DNA of 64,000 nucleotides from Maribacter litopenaei (GTDB lineage: Bacteria; Bacteroidota; Bacteroidia; Flavobacteriales; Flavobacteriaceae). Under the pieces are notes generated by a model. That model saw only the letters and a list, made by a program, of their open reading frames with translations, was not told the DNA's origin and did not search any database. Where the stretch lies: positions 2,477,001-2,541,000 of the forward strand of contig NZ_CP104205.1 in the NCBI RefSeq assembly GCF_025244665.1, read 5' to 3'. Numbering within the stretch: the first letter of the stretch is position 1; each line of letters opens with the position of its first letter. Positions 3,379 to 41,924 of this stretch are shown one piece after another. The position numbers and the translations under genes were made by a program.

Positions 3379-4336
3379 TTAGAAGAACCTAGGTGATTTG
3401 AGGTTGTTCTTGCTCGATATAAAATCATATCTAAGAATAACTTCAAATGAACCGTCGTTGAAGGCCTGTTTGCCTAATTCAGTTGTTTCACGGTCATAAG
3501 CCGAGACCTATCAAAAAGTTACCATTGATATTGAATCCGACCATACCACTGAATGCCGCATCCCACCGATAGGCACCTCCTAAAATAAATCGTTCGTTAA
3601 GCATAAAATTTGCCGAAAGGTCTACCTGTAAAGGCGCTCCCTGCACTACCTTGGTAAGCAGGGTTGGTTTAAACTTTAACATTGGATTCAAATCCCAAAC
3701 ATATCCCGTAATAAAATAAAAGTTCATTTGTTCCTTCGCCGTACTCAATGAAGATTCCTCAAAATGGGATGTCTCCAAAATTCTAGGTACTGAAAGACCC
3801 GCATAAAACTTATTCGTATGATAATATACCCCTGCACCAATGTTGGGAGTAAAACGGTTATCTATATCCTGCTGAAGGGTCTGATCGGTCGTAAACTGGT
3901 TGAGTTCCGAAAAACGTACATCCAATAAGTTGGCACTTGCCTTTAAACCAAAACTTAAACGGCCCTCTGCAGAAGTCCAAACCGTATAGGAAAAGTCTAC
4001 ATCAAAATTGGTTTCTGAAGTGGGTCCTATCTTATCATTTACAATGGACAATCCCAATCCAAGTCCTTTATAACCAATAGGGGAATGAATGTTGAAGGTT
4101 TGTGTTGTGGGAGCCCCCTCCAAACCCAACCACTGGGAACGGTGTAAAGCTGCAATACTAACTTGTCCTCGAGAACCTGCATAACCGGGATTAACGCTTA
4201 CGGTGTTATACATGTATTGTGTATACTGGGCATCCTGCTGTGCAAGTACCGAGGTTCCAATCCATAAAGATAAAAGGACCAATACACTTTTTATAGAAAA
4301 GCCAAAATCCACATTTAATTTTTTGCTGTCTAACAT
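3379..4336 (-). CDS. PorP/SprF family type IX secretion membrane protein (one frame break)
   Basis: Repaired product is about 318 aa, an outer-membrane barrel of the PorP/SprF family. After a signal peptide ending SVLAQ it carries the family opening QQDAQYTQYMYNTVSVNPGY and the RSQWLGLEGAP segment, followed by alternating beta strands. SprF is needed in Flavobacterium johnsoniae for export of the type B adhesin SprB, and PorP-like proteins pair with type B CTD proteins. This one starts 4 bases after such a protein (4341-6363). The frame breaks near 3502 (one extra base before GAGACC on the plus strand); after repair the C-terminus continues AYDRETTELG and ends KSPRFF, matching the paralogue at 26920-27873, which ends VSPRFF. 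The two paralogues are clearly similar throughout. Confidence 0.88.
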
Positions 4337-4340
4337 CCCC

Positions 4341-6363
4341 TTATCTGTTTATGTATATATAACCCGAAAGCTGTTTCATATCTCCGTTAGGTTCCTCGTA
4401 GTCCAGTATATAGAAATAGGTTCCCACAGGTAATTTATTGCTCTGCTCCACGGTTACCCTACCTTGTGAAGTTCCATCAAAAACATTACCCTCAGTATTG
4501 TAGGCCCTTGTTGTAAATACGGATACGCCCCATCTGTTATAGATTCTTATGGTATTGTTTGGATAATTTTCCAACCCATCAATTCGCAATACGTCATGTA
4601 CACCGTCACCATTTGGCGTTATTACATTAAAGACCTCTATTTGTTCAGATAATTCTCCTAAATCACTATCCAAATAGTTCGGGGTACCATCGCCGTCTGT
4701 ATCATCGTTTGCATAATCACCGTCCAAGTTCAAGTCTTCATCAATAGTCTCTATACCATCATCGTCGTCGTCGGTATCACGATAGTCGGACTCCAGATCA
4801 CTGTCGGTATTAGGTAACTGGTCAAATGGATTATCCAGTTCATCGTTTACATCGATATCATTGGTATTACTTCCCTCGTATCCATCATCAAGACCATCTC
4901 CATCCACATCTGAACCTAACAAGGTAAAATCGGCCATACCATCTTGATTATGGTCATGTCCTTCTATGCTATCAGGTACATTGTCATTATCACTGTCGTC
5001 ATCCAAATAGTCAGGTAGGCTATCCCCATCAGTATCCACTGGGAATATTCCAAGATTTCCATTAGCCTCATAGGCATCGTCCACTCCATTTCCATTTGCA
5101 TCCGTTCCACTAGGAGCGATGTAATCTGATGTTGTCTGAGCTTCTACGTTATCTCGGAATACCGTCATTATCACTATCTATATCTAGATAATCAGGGTAG
5201 CCGTCCAAATCGGTATCTGTAGGATTTGTGGCGGGATCATTATCACCATCCAAATTCAAATCCTCAAAACTGTCCAGTATTCCATCGTTATCACTATCCA
5301 AATCCGCATTTGCCGGACTTACGATTATGGTAATCGTAGATGTACTGCAATTTCCTACATCGTCGCAAAGGGTATAATCAAAGCCATCTGTACCGACGAA
5401 ATCATTATTTGGGAAATAGGTAATTGTATCGTCCGATGGATCATTAGGTGTACCATTATCATCGATAGTCGCTGAACCACTCGTGGGCTGTGTAATACTA
5501 AATGTTCCGATAGTAGGAATATCATTGTCATTCAAAACCCACTCATCGATTACCCTAATTTCATTCACCAAAATGGCAATATTATCATCAAAAGTATCTA
5601 CAATTGGAAGCACATCAATACTTACAGTTGCCGTACTACAATCGCCAAAACTGTTACAGATAGTATAATCAAAGCTATCCGCACCATTAAAATCTGGGTT
5701 TGGTATATAGGTGAGTACATCGTCCAAAGGATTGTTGGGCGTCCCGTTATCATCTATGGTGACCGTACCGTTGGATGGTGTAGTAGTGGTCAAAGCACCG
5801 GGATTTGGCAGATCGGAATCATTGGCATAAATATCCACGATTACGGAAGTGTCTTCGTCAACAGAAACAATATCGTCCACCAAGGTTGCGGCCTGAGGCA
5901 AACAAACGACCGTAAAGTTAGGTAGGGCAAAATCATTACCTGCCTTAGTAACTGTGGCCGTATATTTCACCACGGCATCCGTAGCAGTAACAGTCGGCCT
6001 AGTGGGGTCTCCGCTTACTGCAGGTGACCATGTTACTGTTGCACCACCGGTTACATTATTGGTAATGTCCAAGGTAACCTGATTATCAGGATTATTACAA
6101 TCAGTAACGATGAAATAACCAGTGGCATTTGATCCACAAAGAGTACCATCATAGGTGGCAAAGTAAATACCGGGTGCGGTTACCTCAAAGAAAAAATCTG
6201 TTCCTAAAACGGTACTGGTATCCGAAGCCTCGTACCATCGATAATTGTTTTCATCGGTGGAATTAGGTGCCTGAAGCAAAAACTGGGCATTTGATACCAA
6301 CATCCCGAACATTGTAAATACAATGCCCAGGAATATGGATTTATGTAGATTGATTTTTTTCAA
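4341..6363 (-). CDS. Secreted adhesin with T9SS type B sorting domain (one frame break)
   Basis: Repaired product is about 673 aa. In order: signal peptide ending VSNAQ; a short Ig-like N-terminal region; two cadherin/Big-like modules of about 95 aa that carry VDEDTS, NGTVTIDDNGTP and FNGADSFDYTIC motifs; a run of thrombospondin type 3 calcium-binding repeats (DSDNDGI, DTDGDS and similar); and the gliding-motility-associated CHU_C type B domain at the end (ITPNGDGVHDVLRI, IYNRWGVSVF, GTYFYILDY, YIYINR). It is expected to be exported by T9SS and held at the cell surface. The frame breaks near 5154, where CCGGATAA has gained an A on the coding strand. The PorP/SprF gene follows after 4 bases. 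Confidence 0.9.
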
Positions 6364-6384: not shown

Positions 6385-9300
6385 TTACTTTACTACGAAT
6401 ACCACGTTTATCAAGGAGTTATAATCCGGTGGAGTTCCTATTACATCGTATTGCATAACACCATCCGCTCCGATCAAATCTATATTCAAAACCGCCGGAT
6501 CTGCATAGGTTACATAGTAGTATAGTTCTGTTCTACCATAAGTAGGTACCGTTCCAGGCGCACCTGCGCTTGCCGTAAAGTTAGCTGCGGAACCGCCATA
6601 CTGATCTAGGTATTCCTGATAAAGATCCACGGTGGTATCGTTAATAAGTACAGATGCATCGATTGCTATGGAAGGTGGATAGAAAATCCGTGCCGCCTTT
6701 GATGTTATTGGAGCGATAGCCTGTATTACATCTTCTACTGTATCATCCGTAACTCCATCACCGTCTACATCCACAGGAGTATCGGAATCCACTTCAGAAG
6801 CTAATTGGTCATCGGTGCCCAAAGCACTCAATGCAACATCCAAATTGCCATTACTATCTGTAATTCTTAGTACATCTTCAACACCATTATTTGTTACTGA
6901 AAAAGCAGTGTTCACCTCGTTGGTCACACTACCGTCCACCTCAGTTCCTGTTACCACATATGGGTCGCCACTGGTTCCACTACCTGTTACCACGTTGATA
7001 CCACCACCGTTCACGATGGTCTCCGATCCGTCGGCCGTTGGCAATGTTACCGTGTTCCCACCGGCAATCGATAGGTCGTTCCCAGTAATGCTCAAGTTCT
7101 GATTGTCCGTGTTGTCCAAATAGCCACTAAGATCCACCGTAGTGGCATCGTCGCTCAGGCTCAGTGTATTTCCACTGATGCTCAAATCCTGTATCTCATT
7201 TGTCACACTGCCATCCACTTCCGTAAAGGTATTGTTCACCACATATGGGTCGCCGCTCGTTCCGCTTCCCGTTACGCTTATATCAGTTCCGCCATTTACT
7301 ATGGTCTCCGATCCATCGGCCGTCGGCAATGTTACCGTGTTCCCACCGGCAATCGATAGGTCGTTCCCGGTGATGCTCAATGTCCGGCTGTCCGTGTTGT
7401 CCAAGTAGCCGCTAAGGTCAACCGTAGTGGCATCGTCGCTCAGGCTCAATGTATTTCCACTGATGCTCAAATCCTGGATCTCATTGGTAACGCTTCCATC
7501 CACCTCGGTTCCGGTCACCACATATGGGTCGCCACTGGTGCCGCTTCCGGTAACCACGTTGATACCGCCTCCGTTCACTATCGTCTCCGATCCGTCGGCA
7601 ACCGGTACGGAAAGGTCGTAGTCATCACCGGTTTGAGTCAATGTTACGGAACCATCTATGGAAGTTATTGTTTGTATTTCGTTGGTAATACTACCATCCA
7701 CTTCCGTAAAGGTATTGTTTACCACATATGGGTCGCCGCTCGTTCCGCTTCCCGTTACGCTTATGTCAGTTCCGCCATTTACTATGGTCTCCGATCCGTC
7801 TGCAACTGGTACGGAAAGGTCGTAGTCATCACCGGTTTGTGTCAATGTTACGGAACCATCTATGGAGGTTATTGTCTGTATCTCATTGGTCACACTGCCA
7901 TCCACTTCCGTAAAGGTATTGTTCACCACATATGGGTCGCCGCTCGTTCCGCTTCCCGTTACGCTAATATCGGTTCCGCCATTTACTATGGTCTCCGATC
8001 CATCGGCAGTCGGCAAGGTCACCGTGTTCCCTCCCGCAATCGATAGGTCGTTCCCGGTGATGCTCAAGTTCTGATTGTCCGTGTTGTCCAAGTAACCGCT
8101 CAAATCGGCAGTAGTGTCAGCACCGGTTCCATTGGAAAGGGTCAACGTGTTCGTGCTCAAGCTTATCTGCTGGTCGTCAGTGTTCACGAAACCACTAAGG
8201 TCAACACTATTACCACCGGTAGCTGGATTGGTCAGGGTCAACGTATTGCCGCTAAGGCTCAGATCCGTAAGCTCGTTGGTAACGCTACCGTCCACCTCGG
8301 TTCCGGTCACCACATATGGGTCTCCCGAGGTACCGCTACCTGTAACCACGTTGATACCGCCTCCGTTAACTATCGTCTCCGATCCGTCCGCAACTGGTAC
8401 GGAAAGGTCGTAGTCATCACCGGTTTGTGTCAATGTTACGGAACCATCTATGGAGGTTATTGTCTGTATCTCATTGGTCACACTACCGTCCACTTCAGTA
8501 AAGGTACTGTTCACCACATATGGGTCGCCACTGGTTCCGCTTCCCGTTACGCTGATGTCCGTTCCGCCATTTACTATGGTCTCCGATCCGTCGGCCGTTG
8601 GCAAGGTCACCGTGTTGCCTCCAGCAATCGATAGGTCGTTCCCGGTGATGCTCAATGTCTGATTGTCCGTGTTGTCCAAGTAGCCGCTAAGGTCCACCGT
8701 AGTGGCATCGTCGCTCAGGCTCAGTGTATTTCCACTGATGCTCAAATCCTGTATCTCGTTGGTAACGCTACCGTCAACCTCGGTTCCGGTCACCACATAT
8801 GGGTCTCCCGAGGTACCGCTACCTGTAACCACGTTGATACCGCCTCCGTTAACTATCGTCTCCGATCCGTCCGCAACTGGTACGGAAAGGTCGTAGTCAT
8901 CACCGGTTTGTGTCAATGTCACGGAACCATCTATGGAGGTTATTGTCTGTATCTCATTGGTCACACTACCGTCCACTTCAGTAAAGGTACTGTTCACCAC
9001 ATATGGGTCGCCACTGGTTCCGCTTCCCGTTACGCTGATGTCCGTTCCGCCATTTACTATGGTCTCCGATCCGTCGGCCGTTGGCAAGGTCACCGTGTTG
9101 CCTCCAGCAATCGATAGGTCGTTCCCGGTGATGCTCAATGTCTGATTGTCCGTGTTGTCCAAATAGCCGCTAAGGTCCACCGTAGTGGCATCGTCGCTCA
9201 GGCTCAGTGTATTTCCACTGATGCTCAAATCCTGTATCTCGTTGGTAACGCTACCGTCAACCTCGGTTCCGGTCACCACATATGGGTCTCCCGAGATACC

Positions 9301-12300
9301 GCTACCTGTAACCACGTTGATACCGCCTCCGTTTACGATGGTCTCAGAACCATCGGCCATTGGCAGGGTCACCGTGTTCCCTCCTGCAATCGATAGGTCG
9401 TTCCCGGTGATGCTCAGCGTCTGACTGTCCGTGTTGTCCAAGTAACCGCTCAAATCGGCAGTAGTGTCAGCCCCGGTTCCATTGGATAGGGTCAATGTAT
9501 TTGTGCTCAAGCTTATCTGCTGGTCGTCCGTGTTCACGAAACCGCTAAGGTCTACACTGTTTCCTCCGGTAGCTGGATTGGTCAGGGTCAACGTATTGCC
9601 GCTAAGGCTCAGATCCGTAAGCTCGTTCGTCACACTGCCATCCACTTCCGTAAAGGTATTGTTAACCACATATGGGTCGCCACTGGTTCCGCTTCCCGTT
9701 ACGCTGATGTCCGTTCCGCCATTTACTATGGTCTCCGATCCATCGGCCGTCGGCAAGGTCACCGTGTTGCCGCCAGCAATCGACAGGTCGTTCCCGGTAA
9801 TACTCAAGTTCTGATTGTCCGTATTGTCCAAATATCCACTAAGGTCTACCGTAGTGGCATCGTCGCTTAGGCTCAGTGTATTTCCACTGATGCTCAAATC
9901 CTGTATCTCATTTGTCACACTGCCGTCCACCTCTGTTCCTGTTACCACATATGGGTCGCCACTGGTTCCACTACCTGTTACCACGTTGATACCACCACCG
10001 TTCACGATGGTCTCCGATCCGTCGGCCGTTGGCAAGGTCACCGTGTTCCCTCCTGCAATCGATAGGTCGTTCCCGGTAATGCTCAATGTCCGGCTGTCCG
10101 TGTTGTCCAAGTAGCCGCTAAGATCCACCGTAGTAACATCGTCGCTCAGGCTCAGTGTATTTCCACTGATGCTCAAATCCTGTATCTCATTGGTCACACT
10201 TCCGTCCACCTCCGTAAAGGTATTGTTCACTACATATGGGTCACCGCTCGTTCCGCTTCCTGTTACGCTGATGTCCGTTCCGCCATTTACTATCGTCTCC
10301 GATCCGTCGGCCGTCGGCAGGGTTACCGTGTTCCCACCGGCAATCGATAGGTCGTTCCCGGTGATGCTCAATGTCCGGCTGTCCGTGTTGTCCAAGTAGC
10401 CGCTCAAATCGGCGGTCGTATCGGCCCCGGTTCCATTGGAAAGGGTCAACGTATTAGTGTTCAAGCTTATCTGCTGGTCGTCAGTGTTCACGAAACCGCT
10501 AAGATCCACGCTGTTTCCTCCGGTAGCTGGATTGGTCAGGGTCAACGTATTGCCGCTAAGGCTCAGATCCGTAAGCTCGTTGGTCACACTGCCATCGACC
10601 TCGGTTCCGGTCACCACATATGGGTCGCCACTGGTTCCGCTACCTGTTACCACGTTGATACCGCCTCCGTTTACTATCGTCTCAGAACCGTTGGCCGTTG
10701 GCAATGTAACCGTATTACCGCCCGTAATCGATAGGTCGTTCCCGGTGATGCTCAATGTCTGACTGTCTGTTCCTGAGTTATCTAAAGATGATAAATCTAT
10801 AGATGGATTGTTTCCTAATTCATTGGTATATGTCAATTGATTGGTTCCACTATCAAAAGACAGGGAGGTGTTGGTCTCGGCTATAGATACCGATGCAACA
10901 TTCAGGTATAATGCTCCATCAGATCCAACCCCAATGTTATTATTTGCATCGCCACTAATCAAATTCACGGATTCCGTACCTCCACCATCAGTTATTTCTA
11001 AGTTTCCTCCAGTTATACCACTACCCGTATTGTATTCGTTGGTTGCATCGTTATCATTATTGGTCGGAAAGTTTACGGACAAATCGTAATCTATTCCTGT
11101 TTGGTTTACCGTAATTGACCCATCACCTGAGGTAATATCTTGTATCTCATTGGTCACGCTACCGTCCACCTCGGTTCCGGTCACCACATATGGGTCTCCT
11201 GAGGTACCGCTACCTGTTACCACGTTGATACCGCCTCCGTTTACGATGGTCTCCGATCCATCGGCCGTTGGCAATGTTACCGTGTTGCCTCCCGTAATCG
11301 ATAGGTCATTGCCGGTAATGCTCAGCGTCTGATTGTCCGTGTTGTCCAAATAACCGCTCAAATCGGCAGTCGTATCGGCCCCGGTTCCATTGGATAGGGT
11401 CAATGTATTTGTGCTCAAGCTTATCTGCTGGTCGTCCGTGTTCACAAAACCGCTAAGGTCTACACTATTACCACCTGTCGCAGGATTGGTCAGGGTCAAG
11501 GTATTGCCGCTCAGGCTCAGATCCGTAAGCTCATTGGTAATGCTACCATCTACTTCAGTAAAAGTATTGTTCACAATATATGGGTCGCCACTGGTTCCGC
11601 TTCCCGTTACGCTTATGTCAGTTCCTCCATTTACTATAGTCTCAGATCCGTCGGCCGATGGCAAGGTAACCGTATTACCGCCTGCAATCGACAGGTCGTT
11701 CCCTGTAATGCTCAGCGTTTGGGAATCTGTGTTGTCCAAGTAACCGCTAAGGTCAATACTATTTCCATCTACTATGGCCGGAGTATTCCCCGTTAGACTC
11801 AATGTCCGGTCATCGGTATCGGTCAAAGCCGCGATGTCGGCCACAGGTACGCTTACCGTACCCCCGTCGCTGTCGGTAATGACCAGATCGGTTCCCACCA
11901 CCGCGAAGGTCGCGTTCGTCGTATTGGTGTCCGTAGCGGCGGCGATGTCCGCCAGGGCGATCGTCACCGTGTTACCGTCACTGTCCGTCAATATCAAATC
12001 CGTACCGTCCTCGGTCAAACTTGTGTTCGTGGTGTTCGTGTCCGTCAAGGCCGCGATATCGGCTACCGGTACGCTCACCGTACCACCGTCGCTGTCCGTA
12101 ATGACCAGGATCCGTGCCCACCACCGCGAAGGTCGCGTTCGTCGTATTCGTGTCCGTGGCGGCGGCGATGTCCGCCAGGGCGATCGTCACCGTGTTACCG
12201 TCACTGTCCGTCAATATAAGGTCCGTACCGTCCTCTGTCAAAGAGGTGTTCGTGGTGTTCGTGTCCGTCAAGGCCGCGATGTCCGCCACAGGTACGCTCA

Positions 12301-15300
12301 CGGTATTACCGTCGCTGTCGGTGATCACAAGGTCCGTTCCCACTACCGCAAAGGTCGCGTTCGTCGTATTCGTGTCCGTGGCGGCGGCGATGTCCGCCAG
12401 GGCGATCGTCACCGTGTTACCGTCACTGTCCGTCAATATAAGGTCCGTGCCGTCCTCGGTCAAAGAGGTGTTCGTGGTGTTCGTGTCCGCCAAGGCCGCG
12501 ATGTCCGCCACAGGTACGCTCACCGTACCCCCGTCGCTGTCGGTGATCACAAGGTCCGTTCCCACCACCGCGAAGGTCGCGTTCGTGGTATTCGTGTCCG
12601 TGGCCGCCGCCAAAGCTGCTAAAGAAACGGATAAGATAGTACCGTCAGAATCCTCAAGTTCCAGATTGGAACCATTTATTTCAAGTCTACTATTAGTAGT
12701 ATTGGTATCAATATTTGCCAAAGGTACGCTCACCGTACCACCGTCGCTGTCCGTAATGACCAGATCCGTGCCCACCACCGCGAAGGTCGCGTTCGTGGTA
12801 TTGGTGTCCGTGGCAGCGGCGATGTCCGCCAGGGCGATCGTCACCGTGTTACCGTCACTGTCCGTCAATATAAGGTCCGTACCGTCCTCTGTCAAAGAGG
12901 TGTTCGTGGTGTTCGTGTCCGTCAAGGCCGCGATGTCCGCCACAGGTACGCTCACGGTATTACCGTCGCTGTCGGTGATCACAAGGTCCGTTCCCACTAC
13001 CGCAAAGGTCGCGTTGGTCGTATTCGTGTCCGTGGCGGCGGCGATGTCCGCCAGGGCGATCGTCACCGTGTTACCGTCACTGTCCGTCAATATCAAATCC
13101 GTACCGTCCTCGGTCAAAGAGGTGTTCGTGGTGTTCGTGTCCGTCAAGGCCGCGATATCGGCTACCGGTACGCTCACCGTACCACCGTCGCTGTCCGTAA
13201 TGACCAGATCCGTGCCCACCACCGCGAAGGTCGCGTTCGTGGTATTGGTGTCCGTGGCCGCGGCGATGTCCGCCAGGGCGATCGTCACCGTGTTACCGTC
13301 ACTGTCCGTCAATATAAGGTCCGTACCGTCCTCTGTCAAAGAGGTGTTCGTGGTGTTCGTGTCCGTCAAGGCCGCGATGTCCGCCAGGGCGATCGTCACC
13401 GTGTTACCGTCACTGTCCGTCAATATAAGGTCCGTGCCGTCCTCGGTCAAAGAGGTGTTCGTGGTGTTCGTGTCCGCCAAGGCCGCGATGTCCGCCACAG
13501 GTACGCTCACCGTACCCCCGTCGCTGTCGGGTGATCACAAGGTCTGTTCCCACCACCGCGAAGGTCGCGTTCGTGGTATTCGTGTCCGTGGCCGCCGCCA
13601 AAGCTGCTAAAGAAACGGATAAGATAGTACCGTCAGAATCCTCAAGTTCCAGATTGGAACCATTTATTTCAAGTCTACTATTAGTAGTATTGGTATCAAT
13701 ATTTGCCAAAGGTACGCTCACCGTACCACCGTCGCTGTCCGTAATGACCAGATCCGTGCCCACCACCGCGAAGGTCGCGTTCGTGGTATTGGTGTCCGTG
13801 GCAGCGGCGATGTCCGCCAGGGCGATCGTCACCGTGTTACCGTCACTGTCCGTCAATATAAGGTCCGTACCGTCCTCTGTCAAAGAGGTGTTCGTGGTGT
13901 TCGTGTCCGTCAAGGCCGCGATGTCCGCCACAGGTACGCTCACGGTATTACCGTCGCTGTCGGTGATCACAAGGTCCGTTCCCACTACCGCAAAGGTCGC
14001 GTTGGTCGTATTCGTGTCCGTGGCGGCGGCGATGTCCGCCAGGGCGATCGTCACCGTGTTACCGTCACTGTCCGTCAATATCAAATCCGTACCGTCCTCG
14101 GTCAAAGAGGTGTTCGTGGTGTTCGTGTCCGTCAAGGCCGCGATATCGGCTACCGGTACGCTCACCGTACCACCGTCGCTGTCCGTAATGACCAGATCCG
14201 TGCCCACCACCGCGAAGGTCGCGTTCGTGGTATTGGTGTCCGTGGCCGCGGCGATGTCCGCCAGGGCGATCGTCACCGTGTTACCGTCACTGTCCGTCAA
14301 TATAAGGTCCGTACCGTCCTCTGTCAAAGAGGTGTTCAGTGGTGTTCGTGTCCGTCAAGGCCGCGATGTCCGCCAGGGCGATCGTCACCGTGTTACCGTC
14401 ACTGTCCGTCAATATAAGGTCCGTGCCGTCCTCGGTCAAAGAGGTGTTCGTGGTGTTCGTGTCCGCCAAGGCCGCGATGTCCGCCACAGGTACGCTCACC
14501 GTACCCCCGTCGCTGTCGGTGATCACAAGGTCCGTTCCCACCACCGCGAAGGTCGCGTTCGTGGTATTCGTGTCCGTGGCCGCCGCCAAAGCTGCTAAAG
14601 AAACGGATAAGATAGTACCGTCAGAATCCTCAAGTTCCAGATTGGAACCATTTATTTCAAGTCTACTATTAGTAGTATTGGTATCAATATTTGCCACAGG
14701 TACGCTCACGGTGTTCCCGTCGCTGTCGGTGATGACCAGATCCGTGCCCACCACCGCGAAGGTCGCGTTCGTGGTATTGGTGTCCGTGGCAGCGGCGATG
14801 TCCGCCAGGGCGATCGTCACCGTGTTACCGTCACTGTCCGTCAATATAAGGTCCGTACCGTCCTCTGTCAAAGAGGTGTTCGTGGTGTTCGTGTCCGTCA
14901 AGGCCGCGATATCGGCCACAGGTACGCTCACGGTATTACCGTCGCTGTCGGTGATCACAAGATCCGTACCCACTACCGCAAAGGTCGCGTTGGTCGTATT
15001 CGTGTCCGTGGCAGCGGCGATGTCCGCCAGGGCGATCGTCACCGTGTTACCGTCACTGTCCGTCAATATAAGGTCCGTACCGTCCTCTGTCAAAGAGGTG
15101 TTCGTGGTGTTCGTATCGGTCAAGGCCGCGATGTCGGCCACAGGTACGCTCACGGTATTACCGTCGCTGTCCGTAATGACCAAATCCGTACCCACCACCG
15201 CGAAGGTCGCGTTGGTCGTATTCGTGTCCGTGGCAGCGGCGATGTCCGCCAGGGCGATCGTCACCGTGTTACCGTCACTGTCCGTCAATATCAAATCCGT

Positions 15301-16485
15301 ACCGTCCTCGGTCAAAGAGGTGTTGGTCGTGTTCGTATCGGTCAAGGCCGCGATGTCGGCCACAGGTACGCTCACGGTGTTCCCGTCGCTGTCGGTGATG
15401 ACCAGATCCGTGCCCACTACCGCAAAGGTCGCGTTGGTCGTATTCGTGTCCGTGGCAGCGGCGATGTCCGCCAGGGCGATCGTCACCGTGTTACCGTCAC
15501 TGTCCGTCAATATAAGGTCCGTACCGTCCTCTGTCAAAGAGGTGTTCGTGGTGTTCGTATCGGTCAAGGCCGCGATATCGGCCACAGGTACGCTCACGGT
15601 GTTCCCGTCGCTGTCGGTGATGACAAGATCCGTACCCACTACCGCAAAGGTCGCGTTGGTCGTATTCGTGTCCGTGGCAGCGGCGATGTCCGCCAGGGCT
15701 ATCGTTACCGTGTTACCGTCACTGTCCGTCAATATAAGGTCCGTACCGTCCTCCGTAAGGCTGGTGTTGGTCGTGTTCGTATCGGTCAAGGCCGCGATGT
15801 CGGCCACAGGTACGCTCACGGTATTACCGTCGCTGTCCGTAATGACCAAATCCGTACCCACCACCGCGAAGGTCGCGTTGGTCGTATTCGTGTCCGTGGC
15901 AGCGGCGATGTCCGCCAGGGCGATCGTCACCGTGTTACCGTCACTGTCCGTCAATATAAGGTCCGTACCGTCCTCGGTCAAAGAGGTGTTGGTCGTGTTC
16001 GTATCGGTCAAGGCCGCTATTTGGGCCAAAGGAATACCTACCATATTACCGTCTGAATCTACCATGACCAAATCTGTACCCATCACCAAAAAGGCATTAT
16101 TGGTGGTGTTCGTGTCCGTAGCGGCGGCGATGTCCGCCAAGGCGATCGTCACCGTGTTACCGTCACTATCGGTCAATATCAAATTGGTACCATCTTCAGT
16201 AAAACTGGCATTGGTCGTATTATTATCAGTGGAGGTCAATTCCCAGGAATCGCCATCCCAGAAAAAGATAGTCCCGGTATTCGTATTCACGTACAAATCA
16301 CCTAGATCTGCCCCACTCGGAGTGATAGCCCCTGCGGCGGTAACTGCGGTACCTTGCAATACCTCACAATTACACTGATCTTCCAATGTTACGGTCGTTT
16401 GTGCGAACGTGAATCCGGATAACAATAAAAATATCCATAAAATTCTTTTATCCATCACCTTATATTTACTTAAGTACTTTGTCAT
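6385..16485 (-). CDS. Giant repeat-rich secreted surface protein, about 3365 aa (three frame breaks)
   Basis: The start at 16485 (MTKYLSKYKV) gives a charged n-region before ILWIFLLLSGFTFAQ; an alternative start, MDKRILW, lies at 16455. After the signal come about 70 residues with DLGDLYVNTNTGTIFFW, then about forty alternating 37-aa units ending in TDSDGNTVTIALADIAAATD-like or TDSDGNTVSVPVADIAALTD-like sequence. Next is a longer repeat array (LSGYLDNTDNQTLSITGND, GSGTSGDPYVV, TEVDGSVTNEIQ) and a unique C-terminal domain of about 170 aa containing RIFYPPSIAIDASV, TELYYYVTYADPAVLNIDL and NSLINVVFVVK. The D-x-D-G motifs suggest calcium binding. I see no type A or type B sorting domain. Extra single bases near 12109, 13531 and 14338 break the frame; removing them gives an exact open frame. 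Function is unknown; adhesion or biofilm matrix is an inference. The next gene is a type B CTD adhesin 21 bases on. Confidence 0.85.
6950..11760 (-). repeat. C-terminal-half repeat array of the giant protein
   Basis: Many imperfect copies of a module reading (on the minus strand) LDNTDNQTLSITGND, LSIAGGNTVTLPTADGSET, then GSGTSGDPYVV and EVDGSVTNE, alternating with LSISGNTLSLSDD or LTLTNPATGGNSVDLSGF segments. Module order varies, as expected from unequal recombination within the array. A non-repeated island lies near 10770-11100. Confidence 0.85.
8280..9245 (-). repeat. 483-bp in-frame tandem duplication (two copies)
   Basis: 8280-8762 and 8763-9245 are nearly identical by reading, with only a few base differences (for example CCGTCCACC against CCGTCAACC). 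The unit is 161 codons, so the duplication keeps the frame. This is a recent expansion nested in the larger array. Confidence 0.8.
11800..16200 (-). repeat. 37-aa (111-bp) units in 222-bp pairs, N-terminal half of the giant protein
   Basis: Two alternating 37-residue units form a 74-residue pair. Successive copies of one site (for example TGTCCGTGGC at 12151 and 12373) are 222 bases apart. A third unit type, containing RLEINGSNLELEDSDGT, occurs three times. Copies are close to identical in DNA and richer in G+C than neighbouring genes. Confidence 0.9.
12603..14578 (-). repeat. Long tandem duplication of about 987 bp, two copies
   Basis: 12603-13590 and 13591-14578 read as the same sequence. 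Each carries the RLEINGSNLELEDSDG unit followed by the same order of 37-aa variants. Each copy is 988 bases with one probable extra base (near 13531 and near 14338), so the true unit is likely 987 bases, 329 codons. The next downstream unit (from 14579) starts the same way but soon differs. Confidence 0.8.
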
Positions 16486-16784: not shown

Positions 16785-19700
16785 TTAGTTCTTTTTTACC
16801 CTGTAGGTAATTCGACGGTTTGTTATGACCTTATTTACCCTAATATTTAAGATGGCAGGAGAAGAAGTTTCCAGCGAACAGACATAACCGTAATTAGAGA
16901 CTATTACCCTGTATTGACTATTATGATCTGATGGACTTGGGTTTGTAATGGTTAGATTGTCCGAATCAGTACCGCTATAAATTCCAGTATCGGACAAATC
17001 TACCCATGAAGTTCCATTAAAAAATTGCCATTGGTAGGTGTCCACATTACTAGCAGTAACAATGAAATCTGCCGTACATCCTGGACAAACCGTTACGTCA
17101 ATAGGGCTTGAAGCAATGGCAGGTGCCGTCGTTGCTTCCAAGAAATCATATGTTGTGTTTGAATTACCATCTACAGGTTGAGAATAGCTGGCAGCTAATA
17201 CAGCTCCATTGGAACCTACCGAAGGATTTCCAGTACCGTACATACCATTACCATCGGCATCGGTTCCTGCTACCCCATAAGCCTCATCGGCATCATTGCA
17301 AGAATCACCATCACTATCAATATCTAAACTGTTTATAGCTCCATCCCCATCCAGATCACTGCAAAGCGGAAGCAACAATCTAGCGGAATTAAGGGACGAA
17401 TTAATCAGACTTGTATAGGTAATACTAATTTCACTGATGGGCATGTTGGCCATGATATCAAAAGTAGAAAACGGAGCAGCACCTAAGGTTCCACTACTAG
17501 CGACCCGGTAATGCTTACCGTATTTCCATTCACAGTAACTTCAGCATCGGAACTGCTATTTAATTGCCATATGAAACCTACAGGCGCACCTACTGCTGTA
17601 ATTACAATTGAATCAGATTGATTGATGTTACTATTACCAAAACCATTGGAAGCAACCACTTGGACCAATTCTCGATTGGAATAGAGTATATTGGAGGTTA
17701 GGCCCTGATTGGTTGTAATTGAATTGAGTTCCATTCTTAAGGTTTGGAATTCAGCTCCCAACTGTTCTCCTTCAATGTTTACCGAAGTAGCCCCATTAAG
17801 TGCTACTGGAGACTGAAAAGTAAGGGTATTGGAGAATGAATTCCCATCGCTTGCCATGGAAACCATAAAGTCAGGATCACCGGGATCAAGTTGTGATGCA
17901 CCGGAAATTCCACTTAAGTCAGGATACTGTGTACTACATTCCTCCGTGTCGTAAATCCCGTCATTATCGTCATCCAAATCACAATAATCACCTACTCCGT
18001 CAGAATCCGTATCTACATAAGCAGGATTTAATGAATTACAGGTGCTACATTCGGTTGCCTGTAATAAAGGGTCATCACTTGTCCCCCCACCTTGTCCTCC
18101 AGAAACAATTAGAGGAACCCCATTTGCATCCACTCCTCCGGACAGGGAACCGTCAGGATTAAGGCTTGAGAAATTTATCTGTGAGTTGGAAATAGCTCCT
18201 TCTAATGCATCCGGACAACCATCACCATCACTGTCCAAGTCTAGAGAATTCACGATACCATCATTATCAATATCGTTATCCACGGAAGTGCATTGTTCAT
18301 ATACTGCGATATTGTCCACAAAAAACTCGTGATGCGAATCCACAGCCGAGGAACCTTCGAACAAGAGAGTTGATGTAGTGGCAGTAGCCGTAAAGGTCAA
18401 TGTTCTATTAACCATTATATTACTTCCTCCATTGGTTGACTCAATATTTGTTGAGGTATCTGAATACAACTGGTTTCCGGCAGCCAGCACCCTAAAATTG
18501 GAGGTGTTTGGAAAGGCTGTGTTAACACCTAAATCAAAACTTACGGTATAGGTGGTACCTATTACTGTTGTAAGGTCTTGTGCGAATGTACTTGTGGCGG
18601 CCGAATAGTCCTCGAACAAAGCCCTGTCGTTTGTAGGTTCTTGCCACTGATTCCCTGTGCGCGTCCATCCGTCATAATAAAATGATTCGAAGTCTCCATT
18701 ATATACCAAGTTTGCCACCGAAGTTGTTGAAAGGATCGAGAATGGCATTTGTTGTTTGGCAATGCTAGGTCCTTGATAAAGTACCTGTAAAGTCTGCCCT
18801 CCACCATTTTCATAATATGTTATCTCAATGTCATGAAGGCCTACCGATAAACTAATGGGACTACTAGAAACCTCCACTGCTCCGTGATCGCCATCATTAT
18901 CAACCACCTCGACCCCATCGATAAACAGCTTGGAGCCATCATCGGAATTTGTGAAGAAAGTATAGTTTCCGGATGTCGTAATATCGATTTGACCTCTATA
19001 TCTTATGGAGAATGAGTCCGTATCACCTGGGTCAACATTATTCTGAAGAGCGGCCACATCAAAATTGGAAACATACCCAGTGGCCAGTGCTCCACTATTA
19101 GGAATATTGTCCACAGTGTTCCCGGAAGGTACCAAATCATAAAATTCATAAAACAATGAATTAGCTACCGAACAATCAGGGTTTTCATCACTGTCCAAGA
19201 TTCCGTCATTATCATCGTCCAAATCCACTGTATCCGCGTATCCATCACCATCTGAATCATTTACTACGGTCAACAATCCAAAATCTGATATGACCTGGGC
19301 ACAGCTTGATCCACTTTCAGATACCAAAACCCTGTAGCGGTTACCATCATCTGAAAAACTAACATTATTTATGGTCACAGAAGCACCTGTCGCCCCAGCA
19401 ATATCGTTGTAGCTTGCTCCATTATCCATACTTACTTGCCACTGAAATAACAAATTACTACCTGTTGCACCTGCGTTGAAAGTCGCGTTATTTCCCTCTA
19501 TAATCGATTGATCAGCAGGTTGAGAAGTGATGGTGGATCCTTGTGTAATATTGATAGTAGTACTTGCGGAAACATTTACCGTGGGGTCGCCGGGCATCCC
19601 TCCATATTCCACAACATATCCCTTGGGTTGGTATGCTCCCGAGCCTGCTCCCGTATTACTCAAATCATTCCAAGATCCATCGATACCTGTTCCATTAGCT

Positions 19701-20908
19701 GTAATATGCGCATAGTCCTCGTCTCCAGATTGATTTGGTTCCCCTGTATTCCAAAAGGCATAGTTGGGTGTAGAACCATTTGCTAACCCGTTCCAAAAAA
19801 TCGTACCCGTTTCCGATCCTGTAACCCAACGCCATTCCCCTTCCACAGCGGCATCGCTACCACCAATCCAACCAGCACCTGAAATTTGAGAACCTGCAAA
19901 ATTAGATTCTTCGGCAGAAGTTAGGGTTGCCAAGTAACCTTGCAATCCAAAATACGTTGATAAAGCTGCCTTGTCCCTAGCACTTGTCCAAGTAATACCG
20001 ATATCCGAGAAAAATTGATAATAGTGACCAGTATCAGGAAGAAAATAGGCGTCACCAACGATAATCGAAAAATCCCTGCTTCCGTAAGCACTAAGTGAAC
20101 TATTTGAATACTCCACTGCTAAAACGGCATTTTCGAACTCTGTGGATGTCGCCGGCCCGGTTAAGACCAAGCGCCCTTCACTGGCAATCCAACTGGAAGT
20201 AATAGCAGGATGTGTACCCGTCAACGTCAAAAGATCCTCACCATCCACATAGCCATTGGAAACCTGTATCGAAACTTCCTGAATAGTTGGGTCATCTGGA
20301 TCAGTAATACTTATTGTTTCAACAACGGGTAATGAGGTTCCCGGGCAAAAATCTTGATTCCCAGTTGCGGTCACTACCGGGGGTTGATCCTCAATCCGAA
20401 ATGTGATATTATCAATGGCTATACTTTCGCCCGCATCCCAGTCATTGGAACTACTCCTAAAACGAATAGCCGATTGATTTGATTTTTGATTATTACTTAA
20501 TGTATACGTAACTGTCCCAGTAGTCGAAATTTGGAGTGTGGTAATGTTCTGCCAGTTATTAGATGTTGAATTATATAGATAAACCCTCAATCTTTCATTT
20601 CCTCTACTGGTAGCGTCATAATCAAACGTCAACACTACATCCTTGGTGATTCCGCTTAGATCTACCCCTCTCGAAATTTCATCATTTCTGTTGATCCTAT
20701 CAAAAACTAGTTCTCCGTAACTTACGTAAATATTCCCGCCGGTAGCCCCGCCACCGTTGACATCGATTTCTGTCCAATCATTTGAAAAATTAGAGTTACC
20801 ATCATTATTGTTGTAGGCATTGTTGGAAAATGCATCCATGTAGACCTGCTGGGCAGATACCATACCAGCGTAAAAAAATAATAAGAAAGCGTACCTAAAA
20901 AATTTCAT
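16785..20908 (-). CDS. Multidomain surface protein with C-type lectin and PA14 domains (one frame break)
   Basis: Repaired product is about 1374 aa. Domains by eye: signal peptide (MKFFRYAFLLFFYAGMVSAQ); an N-terminal jelly-roll-like domain to about residue 165 (AIDNITF near its end); a C-type lectin fold at about 290-435 (GHYYQFFSDIGITWTSARD, WIGGSDA, FWNTGEPNQ, WNDLS); an Ig-like domain (ITSQPADQSIIEGNNATF); TSP3 calcium repeats; a PA14-type carbohydrate-binding domain at about 590-720 (YRGQIDITTSGNYTFFTNSD, KLFIDGVEVVD); a second jelly-roll-like region; more TSP3 repeats; an Ig-like domain near the C-terminus; and the tail VITNRRITYRVKKN. Carbohydrate binding at the cell surface is the likely role. 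The frame breaks near 17502, where a base is missing in a GGACCC context. No type A or B CTD is recognised. Confidence 0.85.
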
Positions 20909-21035: not shown

Positions 21036-24000
21036 CTAATTTTTCTTTACCCTATAGGTAATCCTCTTATTTGTAATCAAAGAGTTGGCCCTAATTTCAC
21101 TTAAAGGAGAAAACTCAGAAGTGCTATTTGACAACGTTGCTGTAGCCGTAATCAACTCCCCAATGATTACTCCGGGAGGTAATGGAATGGTGAACTTAAA
21201 TTTGTTGGTGTTGTCAGTATTTCCGTCCATATCGGTATATGGTAGAACATTTGAATCCTGATCCGACCCACTGCCTTCAACCAGTGTTCCTATATACACT
21301 TGACCTTCACCATAGTCCCTTAAAAGTCCCAATTCATTATCACCGGCACTGGCAGTGCCTTCGTTAATATCGGTCATAAAAAATTCCAAGGTCGCTCCAG
21401 GTCGTGACCAACCTTCCACTGTTAATGAAGTAACACTTCCATATACACCCGATATTATCGGAAAATTGAGGCTGCCGTTAGATCCTCCATCGGCATCGTT
21501 CAAATCATTTAGGGTAACACCATCGCCTAAAATATCTATACCCAAGGCTGGTGCATTGGTACCATTTGCATAAAATGAGTTCTGACTTACTAGATTACCG
21601 TTCCCGGACCCAATTAAGGCGATTCCCGCACCTCCATTGCTGTGGATTACATTATTGGTTATTTGAGAGTTGCTACCTGCCAATTCTATACCCATATCTT
21701 CCGGATCCACACCACAATTACCACCATCCTGACCTGAACCTGTTATCGTATTTTCGGTTATAATAAGATTTCCCGATGATGAGGCAGCATCTATACCCAA
21801 GGAGGCCGCATTCTCAATTAAGTTTTGTTGTATTACGATACCACTGCCCCCATTGATCATGATGTTATCATCACAGGGTGCATCGCCATTGGAAGTAATA
21901 TGATTGTTCTCGGATAATGTTCGAGGTTCCACCATTTATGAGTATACCACCATCTGTATTGGTGGCAATATAATTGGAATCTACCAGCATATTTCCACCT
22001 AAATTCTCTACTGCAATATCGATATCACCTGCATTTACCCCGCAGGCATTAACCCCCAAAAGGTTGTTTTGAATATCAATACTTCCACCATCTATTCTGA
22101 TACCAGCGTTGTTGTTGGCATATACTGAGAGGTTCCTTATTTGGATGTTATTCGCATTAATTTTAAATACATCACCCCCATTTCTATGAACCTGAATCTC
22201 AGGTAAATCGTAATTGGGCAATGCTACGGCAGAGGTCCCGACAGCAGTACCCCCAGCACCTATTGAACCAGTATTTGTGTTACCGTAATAGGCGGTCTGA
22301 GTACGCCCATCAATTTTAGTATTATCAGAAGAAATATTCGAAAGAGGATTTCCATTCGAAATAAAAATATCAAAATACCCTCCGTAATAATTGGAATCCG
22401 CTGACCTACCCAGCGGATCGCCGGAGGATGGTATCATAAAAACAGACGTATCTTCACCCGAAGCCGGATCAAATAGCCCATTAGCCTCAATATCAAGACC
22501 TGCCTCATCCAAGTTGTTGGAATTTATGATAAACTGTTCCAACGATCCCTGCCCATCTTCATTAGTATTTACGATGGTATTAAAATTATAACCGAAGTCG
22601 ATATTTCCCAATCCACCTCCCGAAATTGTTACAGAACTAACGGATTGAGCTCCGGTAAATATTCCAGCTCCCACATCTTCCTGATCGGGAAATGCCCCTC
22701 CGATTTCACTAGTTACATAATTATAGGAGGTGCCGTTATGTGACGTCCTGAAAGTTTGTACCGGCCAACAAGTGGAACATGCACTTCCCCCTCCCCTGCT
22801 GGATCTGACGGTCGAATTCACCACACGAATATTATATGTACCATCTGCCATACCACCGAAGGCGTATTCACCATTGGCATCCGTTGTATCGGAATTCCAT
22901 AAATTTCCTAAGTTATCATAGATTTCAACGGTGGCACCCACAACAGGAACACCGGAAGATGTGGCCATGTTTCTACCAGCCCCGCCGCCGTAATCGACAT
23001 CCTCAAAAACGGTACCCGCAATTAGGTTTGACTGCACTTTAAGTACCACGGCATTGGAGATTACAAAATCCTGACCCATGGCTACATTGGCCGTGAATTG
23101 GGTATCGCCAGGGTCTAGGATACTCGTTAGATCGTATGTGTCCCAGTCCAAGCCGTATGATGTTGTAATATTTATAGTTGTTGGTGTGGTATTATCATAA
23201 ATGGTACTATTATAGGGATTATTCCCAGTCTGCCCTCCGTCTCCCGTTAAATTGACGGCTGGATCTCCAGGCACACTGATGGATAAGTTTTCCACCACCG
23301 ACCCTGATCCGGCACCCACAATGTTTTCATCGCCTTCCCAGGATAAAAAAGAAGCTTTTGAACCTGCCCCACTAATCGCATAAAAACTATCCAATGTATA
23401 ACTGTTGGTATCATCGCTTATTCCATAAAAACCTTGGTACACATTTATAGTTGATACGGGTAAAGATGGCTCCTCATAGAATATCATAAGTGCCCAACCT
23501 CCCAATACCGTTGAGGAACTGCAGTAGGTGGCTGAATTATCTATATCCAAATCTGTAAACGTGAAATCTGCCGTGTTTAAATTGGCCTTTGCCTGTACAA
23601 TGGAGGTTACATCACTTACGTAGCCATTAAACTGCCTTGTAGTAATGAAAGATGTATAGGCTTGGTCAGCTGTAACATTTTGTCCCTCGAATGTGACATT
23701 CGTATCCAACGTACCATTGGAATGGGCCCAATACAGATATGCCTTTTCAATAGTGGCACCTACAGGAACATCCACCAAAAGTGGTGCCTGAGAAGTTGCT
23801 TGTATCTGACAAGCATCGTTATTGGAATTATTATTAGGAAGGGTTCTTAATGAGCCTCCCGTTGAAGTGTAGTCAAAGTTACCATTAAACTCTCTAACCA
23901 GCACCAAAGGAGGGTTAACTTGAACTTCATCATCATTAATAGTAATCGTTCCGTTGTCAGTTATATCAACCGAAGGATTACTTGAACCCGTTAGGTCCAA

Positions 24001-24774
24001 AATGAAACTTTCCCGCCCCTCAAGTGAACTATCATCCAAAATTGTAACCGTAACCGTTTCAGTATCTCCAACAGTACCGTGAAAAATTAAGAGTACCGAA
24101 GTAAAGGTATAGTCCGACCCACTTATAGCAGTATTGTCAACAGTTTGAAAGTTAACGCTAAAACTACCTGTATTAGTTGCTGTATGGGTCACTGTAATGT
24201 CAACAGTACCAGCAGTTTCATCTACGGAAACATCAGTGATTTCAACTACTGGGTTATAAAATGCCGTAAATAACACATTATCGATAAAAATAGTATCTCC
24301 ATTTTGCCAGTCAGTATCCCTGGGATAAAAAATGATTGCTGGATTGGAATCGATTTCGGCAGCGGTGAGATTGTATGTTATGGTACCAGTAGTATTACTG
24401 TCTACACTCCCTACCAAATTCCAAAACGCCGTATTACTGTTATAAATGTAAACATCCATGATTTCTCCACCCCTAGATGTACCGTCAAAATCCAAGGTTA
24501 GTTGAACACTTGATGCTCCTGCCAATGGTACAAATCGATAAATCCAATCATCATCACTATTAGAAAAGCGCAAACGCCCTGAAGTAATTCTTGTAGAACC
24601 ACTACCGGGATTGTTATTATCATTGTTCTCAATCCAATTAGAACTAAAATTCTGACTACCATCATTATTTGAATATGAAGCTGAACTAAAATTATCCCTA
24701 AAGGTCTCCTGACTCCAAGAAACATTAGCGGCTACCATTAATGAAATAATCAAAAGCAGTTTAAAGAACTTCAT
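21036..24774 (-). CDS. Multidomain surface protein with Calx-beta, SdrD-like and beta-helix domains (one frame break)
   Basis: Repaired product is about 1245 aa. After a signal peptide (ending VSWSQ) it has the same N-terminal domain as its neighbour (SYSNNDGSQNFSSNWIE, DTDWQNGDTIFIDNV). Then come a Calx-beta-like domain (VDETAGTVDITVTH, ending LEGRESFILDL); a large beta domain resembling DUF3344 (VPVGATIEKAYLYWAHSNGT, LGGWALMIFYEEP); an SdrD B-like domain (AGTVFEDVDYGG, VPVVGATVEIYD, DANGEYAF); a right-handed parallel beta-helix (NNIQIRNLSVYANNNAGIRI, GSIDIQNNLLGVNACGV); and the tail LITNKRITYRVKKN. The frame breaks near 21910, where CCGGAAC on the coding strand gained an A. It is probably a secreted or surface-retained carbohydrate-active or adhesive protein; no catalytic residues are evident. 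Confidence 0.85.
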
Positions 24775-24964: not shown

Positions 24965-26916
24965 TTATTCGAAAATTATAAATTCCGATCTTCTGTTGAC
25001 ATCGTGTTTAGCAGATGAACATGGAACACCATCTGCACATTCGTTCAACAATTTAGATTCGCCAAAGCCCTCGCTTAACAACCTATCCCTAGAAATACCT
25101 TTGTTCACCATGTAATTTACTGTTGATTCTGCTCTCTTTTGAGACAACCAAAGATTATAAGCGGCAGGTCCCCTACTATCTGTGTGGGAATTGACCTTGA
25201 TCTTTAGACTAGGGTATTTTTCCATGGCAGCGATTACCTTTTCTATTTCCACTTCTGAGTCCTTTCTTATATTGTATTTGTCGAAATCGAAATAAATGGT
25301 ACTCAGCTGTAACAGTTTGGCCAAATCATCCCCGTAACCAGCGGTTATTCTGTCCCTTTCCAAATAAAAATCGATGATTTTCGGTTTGCCGTCCGAAACA
25401 CCAATATACTCCTCATGAGGGGTATAGCCTTCCATTAAAGCCCTAACAAAATTCCCTTGATTGCAATCCAAAACCAAACTGTAGGTTCCTTTTGAATCCG
25501 TGATGGTGGATAAAATCTCTACATTATCCTCGTTGATTACCTTAACCGTGGCTCCTACCAACACCTGATTGGAAATTTTGTCCCTAACAGTTCCTGTTAC
25601 CTGTTGGATACAATCAAAAACCAAAGGTTCGTTTTCAACAAAAGCATAAATGTCATCATAGCCCATTCCACTATCCCGATTGGATGCAAAATAGCCCTTT
25701 CGGTTTTCCTCATTAAAAATAAAGGTGAAATCATCCTTAACACTGTTAACAGGTTCGCCTACATTCATGACGTTACCGTTAAAATCTTTGCGTTTTATTT
25801 TCGTTCCGAAAACATCCAAACCTCCCAATCCCGGATGTCCATCCGATGAAAAATAGAGATTCTCCTCTTCCGTGACAAATGGAAAAGTTTCCCGCGCTTC
25901 CGTATTTATATTTTCTCCTAAGTTGACGGGAGGACCAAAAGTTCTATCCTTGTTGATTTCTACCATGAATATATCGGAAGCGCCTAATGTTCCTGGCATA
26001 TCCGATGCGAAATACAGGGTCTTTTCATCCGGACTCAAAGCTGGATGCGCTACCGAATAGGAATCACTATTAAATGGAAGTTCCTCTACCTCGCCCCACA
26101 CACCATCTTCCATCATTTGGGCCCTAAATATCTTAAGACGAATCATACCTTCTTCGTCCTTTTTATATTTGCCTTCCACTATATTATTTCGAGTAAAATA
26201 GAGTGTTTGCCCATCTTTTGTTGTTATGGAAGTGGATTCATGCAAACGCGTATTCACATAATCGTCTAATTTTACGACTTTGCTATTTGAGGTACTGTCG
26301 GCATTCACCTTGTACAAGTCCAAAAAATCCTGACCATTCCAAGTATGTCTATTTCTCGCGAAGTTTCCTGTATCCCTATCGGACGAAAAGATAAGACCTT
26401 CCTCATAAAAGGAAGGTGCAAATTCTGAATAAGCAGAATTGTAAGGGAAAGAATTCAATTCATACCTACCGAATTCTTTTTAATATCCGCTAGATAATCT
26501 TCCATACTCTTATATTGTTTGGCCCGCACGTCATTGGACGTCATTTCGGTAAACTTGCCCATAATTTCATCTGCCCTATCATAGTCCTCCAATGATTTTA
26601 GGGTTTGGGCATATTTGAAATAGTCTTCGGCCGTAACCTCGGATTGAAATTCAGTAACTAACCTATTATAAATTTTCCCTGCTTCCTTATAGTCTGCATT
26701 GAAGTAATAAGAATTTCCCAATTTTCGCAATAAATCAGCCGATACAAACCCCTTGTCCAACACTTTCTTATAAATATCAATGGCGGGGCTAAAGGAATAC
26801 TCTTCATATTTTTCATCTCCCTTTTTTAAAAACCTTTCTTGGGCAAACGAAATTCCCGAAGCCATTTGAAAGATTATAATAAGAAAAAGGATATGTACTT
26901 TTTTTAACATTTGCAT
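24965..26916 (-). CDS. PorE-like OmpA-family protein (TPR, PD40, CRD, OmpA; one frame break)
   Basis: Repaired product is about 650 aa. In order: signal peptide (ISFAQE); TPR-like helices at about 25-150 (KLGNSYYFNADYKEAGKIYN, YFKYAQTLKSLEDYDRADEI); PD40 beta-propeller blades (PALSPDEKTLYFASDM, FVTEEENLYFSSDGHPGLGG, GYFASNRDSGMGYDDIYAF); a carboxypeptidase-regulatory-like domain (VTGTVRDKISNQVLVGATVKV); and a C-terminal OmpA domain that binds peptidoglycan (IYFDFDKYNIR, INSHTDSRGPAAYN-like segment, LLSEGFGES). This is the architecture of Porphyromonas gingivalis PorE, a T9SS component that interacts with PorP. The frame is lost near 26471, where CCGGAATT lost a G, so the two apparent genes are one. 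It starts 3 bases after the PorP/SprF gene. Confidence 0.88.
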
Positions 26917-41000: not shown

Positions 41001-41850
41001 TCTCTGCAATATGTTCTTTCTCAAGAACTGTATCACGATCCAAAACGATCTCGTTTCTCTCAATGGAAACTACCTCACCGGTATCCTCATCCACAAAATC
41101 CTCGTGCCAAGTGTTCAAAACCCTTGCAGCAAGTTTACGTCCTAGTACCTTTTTAAGACCTGCATTGGAAACCTTAACTTCCTCTGAAAGGTCAAAAATT
41201 TCCAAAATATCCTTGTCCCTTTCAAAACCAATGGCTCTAAATAGGGTGGTTACGGGTAATTTTTTCTTTCTATCAATATAAGCGTACATTACGCCATTGA
41301 TATCGGTAGCAAATTCTATCCAAGAACCTTTAAAAGGAATAACCCTGGCAGAATACAATTTTGTACCGTTTGCATGGAAAGACTGTCCAAAGAATACACC
41401 AGGAGAACGGTGTAATTGGGAAACCACTACTCTTTCCGCTCCATTTATAACAAAAGTACCACTTGGAGTCATGTAGGGTATTGTCCCTAAATAAACGTCC
41501 TGTACAATAGTTTCAAAATCTTCGTGTTCCGGATCGGTACAATATAACTTTAACCTAGCCTTTAACGGAACGCTATAAGTAAGACCCCGCTCAATACACT
41601 CTTGAATGGAGTATCTTGGTGGATCGATAAAATAATCTAAAAATTCCAGTACGAACTGATTTCTAGTATCAGTTATGGGGAAGTTTTCCATGAAGGTATT
41701 GTACAATCCCTCATCACCTCTTTGATCAGATTTGGTTTCAAGTTGAAAAAAATCTTGAAAGGATTTAATCTGAATATCCAAGAAATCCGGATACTGCGGA
41801 GTATTCTTAGCGGATGCAAAATTTATTCTTTCAGTCTGATTTGTGAACAT
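38041..41850 (-). CDS. rpoB: RNA polymerase beta subunit (two frame breaks)
   Basis: Repaired product is about 1269 aa. It contains the classic rifampicin-region segments ([12 protein letters not shown], then [20 protein letters not shown] and [19 protein letters not shown]), [15 protein letters not shown] near the active centre, and the C-terminal [20 protein letters not shown]. The frame breaks near 40422, inside the rifampicin-region segment where Asp is followed by an expected Gln or Glu, and near 39267, where CCGGAAGAG lost a base. The corrected length is 1270 codons with stop. The first break sits on a GGAC-GAGACC context. Co-transcribed with rpoC. Confidence 0.95.
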
Positions 41851-41924
41851 CTACGGACAGTGTTTTGATCGTGAGTACTATTGGGGTGGTATATCACTTA
41901 ATATACCTGATTCTATAAAAAGGC

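Follow-up and report, generated by a model that had tools for sequence, protein, structure and literature searches.

A giant repeat protein of Maribacter litopenaei represents a widespread family of probable trimeric surface fibres whose ends are conserved and whose shafts are exchangeable

Trimeric autotransporter adhesins are giant surface fibres with stalks of heptads that carry asparagine at position d (N@d), and proteins of the BclA and C1q type are collagen-like fibres with a globular head. Substrates of the type IX secretion system (T9SS) are described in PMC12618676 as bearing a conserved C-terminal sorting domain, and those of type B as requiring cognate PorP/SprF shuttles; binding of type B proteins to PorP-like proteins, and of SprB to SprF, is reported in PMC9143113. 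Here we analyse a giant repeat gene on the minus strand (6385–16485) of a 64,000-nucleotide window, which spans positions 2,477,001–2,541,000 of the single-contig 3.86 Mb genome of Maribacter litopenaei (estimated completeness 81.7%). The gene appears to represent an undescribed and widespread family, probably of trimeric surface fibres, with conserved ends, exchangeable shafts and no recognisable sorting domain; no description of such a family was found in the literature searched, at the level of titles and the first lines of abstracts. On balance, we favour the reading that it encodes a homotrimeric cell-surface fibre belonging to a conserved T9SS-linked operon.

The locus resembles that of SprB and the type B adhesins (in Flavobacterium johnsoniae, and PG1035-PorP in Porphyromonas gingivalis) in that a giant repetitive protein with a signal-like N-terminus has a PorP/SprF gene downstream and a type B domain in the same operon. 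Unlike in those systems, a second, short protein carries the sorting domain here, and the giant's C-terminus is formed by another conserved domain. A collagen shaft beside a compact C-terminal domain, as in BclA and C1q-type proteins, is found in 15 of 87 ortholog stretches, but the C-terminal domain members match no C1q/TNF or BclA model, and the shaft can be exchanged for hairpin or heptad modules. N@d heptad stalks in some orthologs, together with the inferred giant surface fibre, recall trimeric autotransporter adhesins, yet the same domain members match no YadA-type anchor model, and the neighbourhood is that of a T9SS. Finally, a 21-residue stretch of the 37-aa repeat unit resembles positions 39–59 of the 64 in the BapA-prefix model NF033677; the match is confined to that repeated piece, and no single stretch passes.

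The C-terminal domain (107 aa; 6388–6708, minus), delimited by homolog searches, alignment and AlphaFold2, is the best-conserved portion of the giant and occurs widely among Flavobacteriaceae, whereas the variability lies in the repeats. With the 107-aa sequence as query, one match per genome was obtained in 35 of the 60 genomes searched, namely the window's own, 31 of the 35 others of the same genus and 3 of 24 further genomes. Of 288 stretches in the GTDB contig collection that carry the pattern, 203 encode a relative. The 80 best were retained, and among these the closest domains are those of Maribacter sp. 4G9 and M. flavus (93%). A 51-member profile detected the family in 101 of 395 Flavobacteriaceae genomes and 57 of 203 genera, with some detections resting only on the linker that precedes the domain. 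Frames ending in the domain can be as short as about 210 aa (L056, Aquimarina; L116, a Croceitalea metagenome-assembled genome, MAG) and as long as 4,622 aa. The final residues, LINVVF, are invariant in all 51 sequences, from which AlphaFold2 models a beta-rich domain with a mean predicted local distance difference test score (pLDDT) of 87.5 and a predicted template modelling score (pTM) of 0.60; from residue 81 on, ten-residue blocks reach pLDDT 82–97, apart from one at 75.

The window's copy of the domain matches nothing in Pfam or NCBIfam even at E 1, and the stray matches of other members form no pattern (NCBIfam, no more than 1 of 51, the best being a phage-structural model at E 9.6e-4; Pfam, no more than 3 of 51, best E 0.0059). 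Solved structures gave no match by sequence, and Foldseek found none in the PDB and viral libraries at E 0.001. VIA-align returned a best Z of 5.1 (a phage SU10 chain), followed by fibre, tailspike, adaptin and H-type lectin domains at Z 3–4, a range that according to the tool possibly reflects just a common arrangement. The initial annotation, made from the DNA alone, had called this C-terminal domain unique: it is indeed distinct and belongs to no Pfam or NCBIfam family, but it recurs across many Flavobacteriaceae genomes. The accompanying statement that no described family covers the whole architecture holds, as library matches to the giant are summed weak repeats and the C-terminal domain has no curated model.

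At the opposite end, a signal-peptide-like segment (16402–16455, minus; judged by eye, with no signal-peptide program) precedes a conserved N-cap (16228–16401, minus) with a cysteine pair, CNC, in frame at about 16366–16374. The predicted secretion of the giant is consistent with its secreted look and signal-like N-terminus; the giant has no recognisable T9SS sorting domain. The N-cap is modelled with pLDDT 85–88 over residues 11–50, and intact orthologs likewise begin with it. Of 13 orthologs bearing it, 12 have the Cys-x-Cys pair (Cys 10 and 12) as their sole cysteines after the signal-like segment; the exception, L123, has two additional ones, and L078 has masked stretches. CNC is likewise the only in-frame cysteine pair of the window's giant, with one further cysteine in an out-of-frame tail. 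The pair is absent from the N-cap region of the small Aquimarina proteins that were printed. In three Aquimarina genomes (L056, L073 and L109) the orthologs are small (209–364 aa), and genes beside them start with a similar N-cap-like stretch, as if it were common to several fibre proteins.

Judged by sequence, both ends of the giant are constant across species while the type and length of the core are replaced. The best repeat period varies among 22 orthologs (e.g. 94, 100, 83, 21, 77, 114, 87 and 178 aa), and hairpin repeats, SSLTGVP repeats, heptads and collagen all occur among 190-residue mid-sequence snippets taken from 20 orthologs. We surveyed shaft modules in 87 ortholog stretches, 32 of them at least 600 aa long and many cut by contig ends. 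Collagen, counted as at least 10 contiguous Gly-X-Y triplets, occurs in 15 of the 87, in runs of up to 240, and N@d heptads (at least four [IVL]xxNxxx) in 8; 20 shuffles of the 32 long stretches yielded neither. Lysine and arginine together make up no more than 2.4% of residues in the 23 orthologs counted. Collagen Gly-X-Y triplets form triple helices and heptads with asparagine at d are typical of trimeric coiled coils, and it is mainly because of these two modules in some orthologs that we call the family trimeric.

The T9SS partners are encoded directly downstream. A protein that combines Big_9 domains with a type B sorting domain (CHU_C; 4341–6363, minus), a single open frame in relatives and two open reading frames (ORFs) here, is followed by a PorP/SprF gene (3388–4336, minus; library match) with a frame break near 3.5 kb. 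The earlier proposal that type IX partners flank the giant is upheld by CHU_C/TIGR04131 and PorP_SprF matches adjoining a giant that itself has no recognisable sorting domain. In 71 of the 80 loci, the fibre gene is immediately followed by one for a type B protein with an open frame of 671–682 aa, counted from stop to stop (Met-to-stop ORFs are uneven and some start late), and this gene ends 2,021–2,054 nt past the stop of the fibre. A PorP/SprF gene follows the type B protein in the same 71 loci, one gene beyond the fibre's neighbour. The candidate anchor thus keeps its size, unlike the fibre.

These observations can be combined in a model in which surface location, trimerisation and docking are all inferred. 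Three chains would pair in parallel, through a collagen triple helix, an Asn-at-d coiled coil or beta-hairpin repeats depending on the species, and the C-terminal domain would nucleate the trimer, dock on the type B partner, or both. The type B partner would pass the T9SS by virtue of its sorting domain and then be held by its own PorP/SprF, so that fibre and anchor may form a two-part appendage, unlike the one-piece SprB-like adhesins. Near-identical repeats would allow the shaft to change length through recombination, and the fibre may serve cell-surface adhesion or reach, with roles in attachment, biofilm formation and possibly gliding.

Several points weigh against this model. The tie between the fibre and the type B/PorP pair is not strict, because 9 of the 80 loci (eight Aquimarina and one MAG) have the domain without an adjacent pair; none of the nine has a PorP within reach, eight have a shorter and more distant type B protein (387–439 aa open frame), and L069 has no type B protein within 7 kb. 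Synteny runs on into NUDIX–PTPS–PMI housekeeping genes, and part of the linkage is therefore plain vertical descent. Collagen is lacking in 72 of the 87 stretches, many of them cut by contig ends, and the shaft of the window's own giant consists of hairpin units with neither collagen nor N@d heptads. The AlphaFold2 model of its repeats carries no inter-unit confidence (pTM 0.28).

It is possible, if a little short of probable, that the 107-aa domain represents a third sorting-signal class of the T9SS or else serves to dock a trimeric fibre that lacks a sorting domain onto a separate type B anchor, in a split T9SS adhesin with free exchange of the shaft among collagen, coiled-coil and beta-hairpin modules. 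Rather unlikely, in our estimate, is the version in which the domain itself is that third sorting class and the giant is exported alone, perhaps via the neighbouring PorP/SprF. The domain does occupy the very C-terminus, measures some 100 residues, is beta-rich and ends in invariant residues, as a signal would; a PorP/SprF gene is nearby, and the small Aquimarina orthologs retain the domain without a long shaft or an adjacent type B/PorP pair. However, comparison with a type B sorting-domain profile gave an hhalign probability of 1%, neither type A nor type B (TIGR04131, PF13585) sorting-domain models match any of the 51 members at E up to 1, the type B models match none of the giant's four ORFs, and a type B partner already exists for the adjacent PorP/SprF.

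Genomes without the domain offer a comparison for the two-part fibre and anchor that we favour. Ten genomes were searched with the window's PorP, and four that lack the C-terminal domain were opened. The type-B-like proteins just upstream of PorP in these four measure 1,461, 2,021 (and 2,596 or more), 3,363 and 4,565 aa, the CHU_C match having been examined for the 3,363-aa protein. The latter (L134:2310–12398) is a one-piece type B protein with bacterial TSP3 repeats at the same NUDIX–PTPS–PMI site. These few examples suggest that one-piece and two-piece solutions both exist.

The shaft of the window's giant is built from two arrays. The first (11821–16227, minus), delimited by unit counting and Tandem Repeats Finder (222 bp × 19.8 and 111 bp × 39.2, at about 11,820–16,180), comprises exactly 40 units, each about 37 aa long, that alternate between two main types; by length, 34 units are of 111 nt, three of 99 nt and three of 112 nt. 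Mean DNA identity is 92.8% among A-type units (n = 17), 90.0% among B-type units (n = 13) and 67.1% between the types, leaving out the other 10 units, which are variants or frame-broken. Two consecutive 988-nt blocks (12710–14685, minus) are 99.7% identical by block alignment, with one mismatch and two gap openings. The second array (6916–11802, minus) consists of 16 copies of GSG[TI]SGDPY modules with LSxxGN hairpins, and a linker with a hairpin and a TPVDVDGDG...VIQAIAP segment (6709–6915, minus) leads into the C-terminal domain. GC content in 500-base bins is 0.47–0.61 over 7.0–16.0 kb, compared with 0.33–0.46 in flanking bins up to 24 kb. GC at third codon positions (GC3) is 0.73 in the units, 0.49 in the second array and 0.36 in the C-terminal domain, and it is higher in the core than in the C-terminal domain in 19 of 22 orthologs; the high value of the array could reflect GC-biased conversion between repeats or amino-acid choice. 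The initial annotation was thus correct about some forty units in two types, a different second array, GC-rich repeats and near-identical, recently expanded copies.

Its reading of the TDSDGNT motif as calcium-binding gained no support: EF-hand, TSP3 and RTX models match none of the four pieces of the giant in Pfam at E up to 0.1, in a search that did detect TSP_3 in neighbouring proteins, and calcium-binding repeats were dropped as a candidate. AlphaFold2 models each unit as three short strands plus one short helix and places DSDGN in a hairpin turn, all at low confidence. By sequence, solved structures gave only weak hits to the arrays. Library models that exceed their cut-offs on the arrays (PG_binding_4, NifU, the BapA prefix and several phage families) were rejected as sums of weak repeats, with no stretch passing by itself. 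Among these, the BapA prefix scores 83 bits against a cut-off of 35 but, again, without a single passing stretch.

As assembled, the giant gene is not the single ORF first proposed. The giant repeat gene is real, but it lies on the minus strand as four overlapping ORFs (16542–14287, 14327–13410, 13510–11978 and 12078–6385; 751, 305, 510 and 1,897 aa), owing to three single-base frame breaks near 14.3, 13.5 and 12.1 kb. All three fall in units of the 40-unit array (14352–14241, 13586–13475 and 12154–12043); combined, they restore the first frame, and the giant measures 3,365 aa once the three extra bases are discounted. Four ORFs are also what a decayed pseudogene with real breaks would present, which we consider very unlikely. 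rpoB of the same genome (window 38041–41854) is in three pieces, two with an internal stop. A comparison of the window with eleven genes of Maribacter sp. PR1 (L113) yielded nine matches, and five of the nine genes change frame here (PorP318, type B, OmpA/TPR, a 1,069-aa and a 232-aa protein), the other PorP, NUDIX, PTPS and PMI being intact. The orthologous frames are unbroken in seven genomes of the same genus (3,749, 3,821, 3,449, 2,936, 2,397, 2,016 and 2,277 aa, on contigs of 1.6–4.8 Mb). Because rpoB and five of nine neighbours are also broken and seven relatives are not, the breaks are likely assembly errors; further points against decay are that the single contig has an estimated completeness of 81.7% and that one of the two 99.7% identical blocks lacks the extra bases of its twin. 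The assembly seems rich in single-base indels genome-wide, with split ORFs throughout, and ORF-based readings of this genome therefore need care.

Upstream of the giant lie two further large proteins, each in two ORFs here: one with PA14, lectin-like and Ig domains (16785–20908, minus), ending ITNRRITYRVKKN, and one with Calx-beta and beta-helix domains (21036–24774, minus), ending ITNKRITYRVKKN. Neither matches a sorting domain. Both end in the motif ITN[RK]RITYRVKKN (16785–17453 and 21036–21935, minus), which is possibly another C-terminal signal; similar ends occur on neighbouring large proteins in L113 and Aquimarina, and the DNA pattern was found in 7 of 21 genomes, including two occurrences in the genome of the window. 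Beyond them are a TPR/PD40/CarboxypepD_reg/OmpA protein (24965–26916, minus; two ORFs here), whose layout we take to be PorE-like, and a second PorP/SprF gene (26920–27873, minus; library match). The latter adjoins a type B protein with Big_9/cadherin-like repeats that contains a tandem array of 294 bp × 4.9 at 93% (28214–29657).

This gene order (PorP, OmpA-type, large proteins, type B, PorP) is comparable to that of remFG-sprCDBF, given as the gliding operon of Flavobacterium in PMC9723704, and would suit a one-piece gliding adhesin of the SprB/SprD kind. We find that reading more doubtful still than decay: the giant has no type B domain, and another cluster at 3.714–3.735 Mb, with type-B-like ends, an SprB-like repeat gene and flanking PorP/SprF matches, resembles sprCDBF by eye. 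Because that cluster sits elsewhere in the genome, an assignment as SprD from gene order was dropped, and the giant is equated with neither SprB nor SprD.

Least probable of all is a host-adopted phage tail fibre or injection-system fibre: the shaft modules are of a kind used in tail fibres, C-terminal domains of phage fibres and tailspikes are among the weak fold matches (Z 3–5) and a single member of the 51 weakly matches a phage-structural model, but no relative of the C-terminal domain was found in viral contigs or phage records, and both the signal-like N-terminus and the T9SS neighbourhood speak against it.

The largest secreted-type protein of this widespread operon has no recognisable sorting domain but ends in a conserved domain of its own, which would point to either a new sorting signal or a two-part adhesin. 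Its C-terminal domain, for which no curated model exists, could be named in hundreds of genomes. Collagen and hairpin shafts placed between the same ends would amount to a natural experiment on the composition and length of fibres in common marine bacteria.

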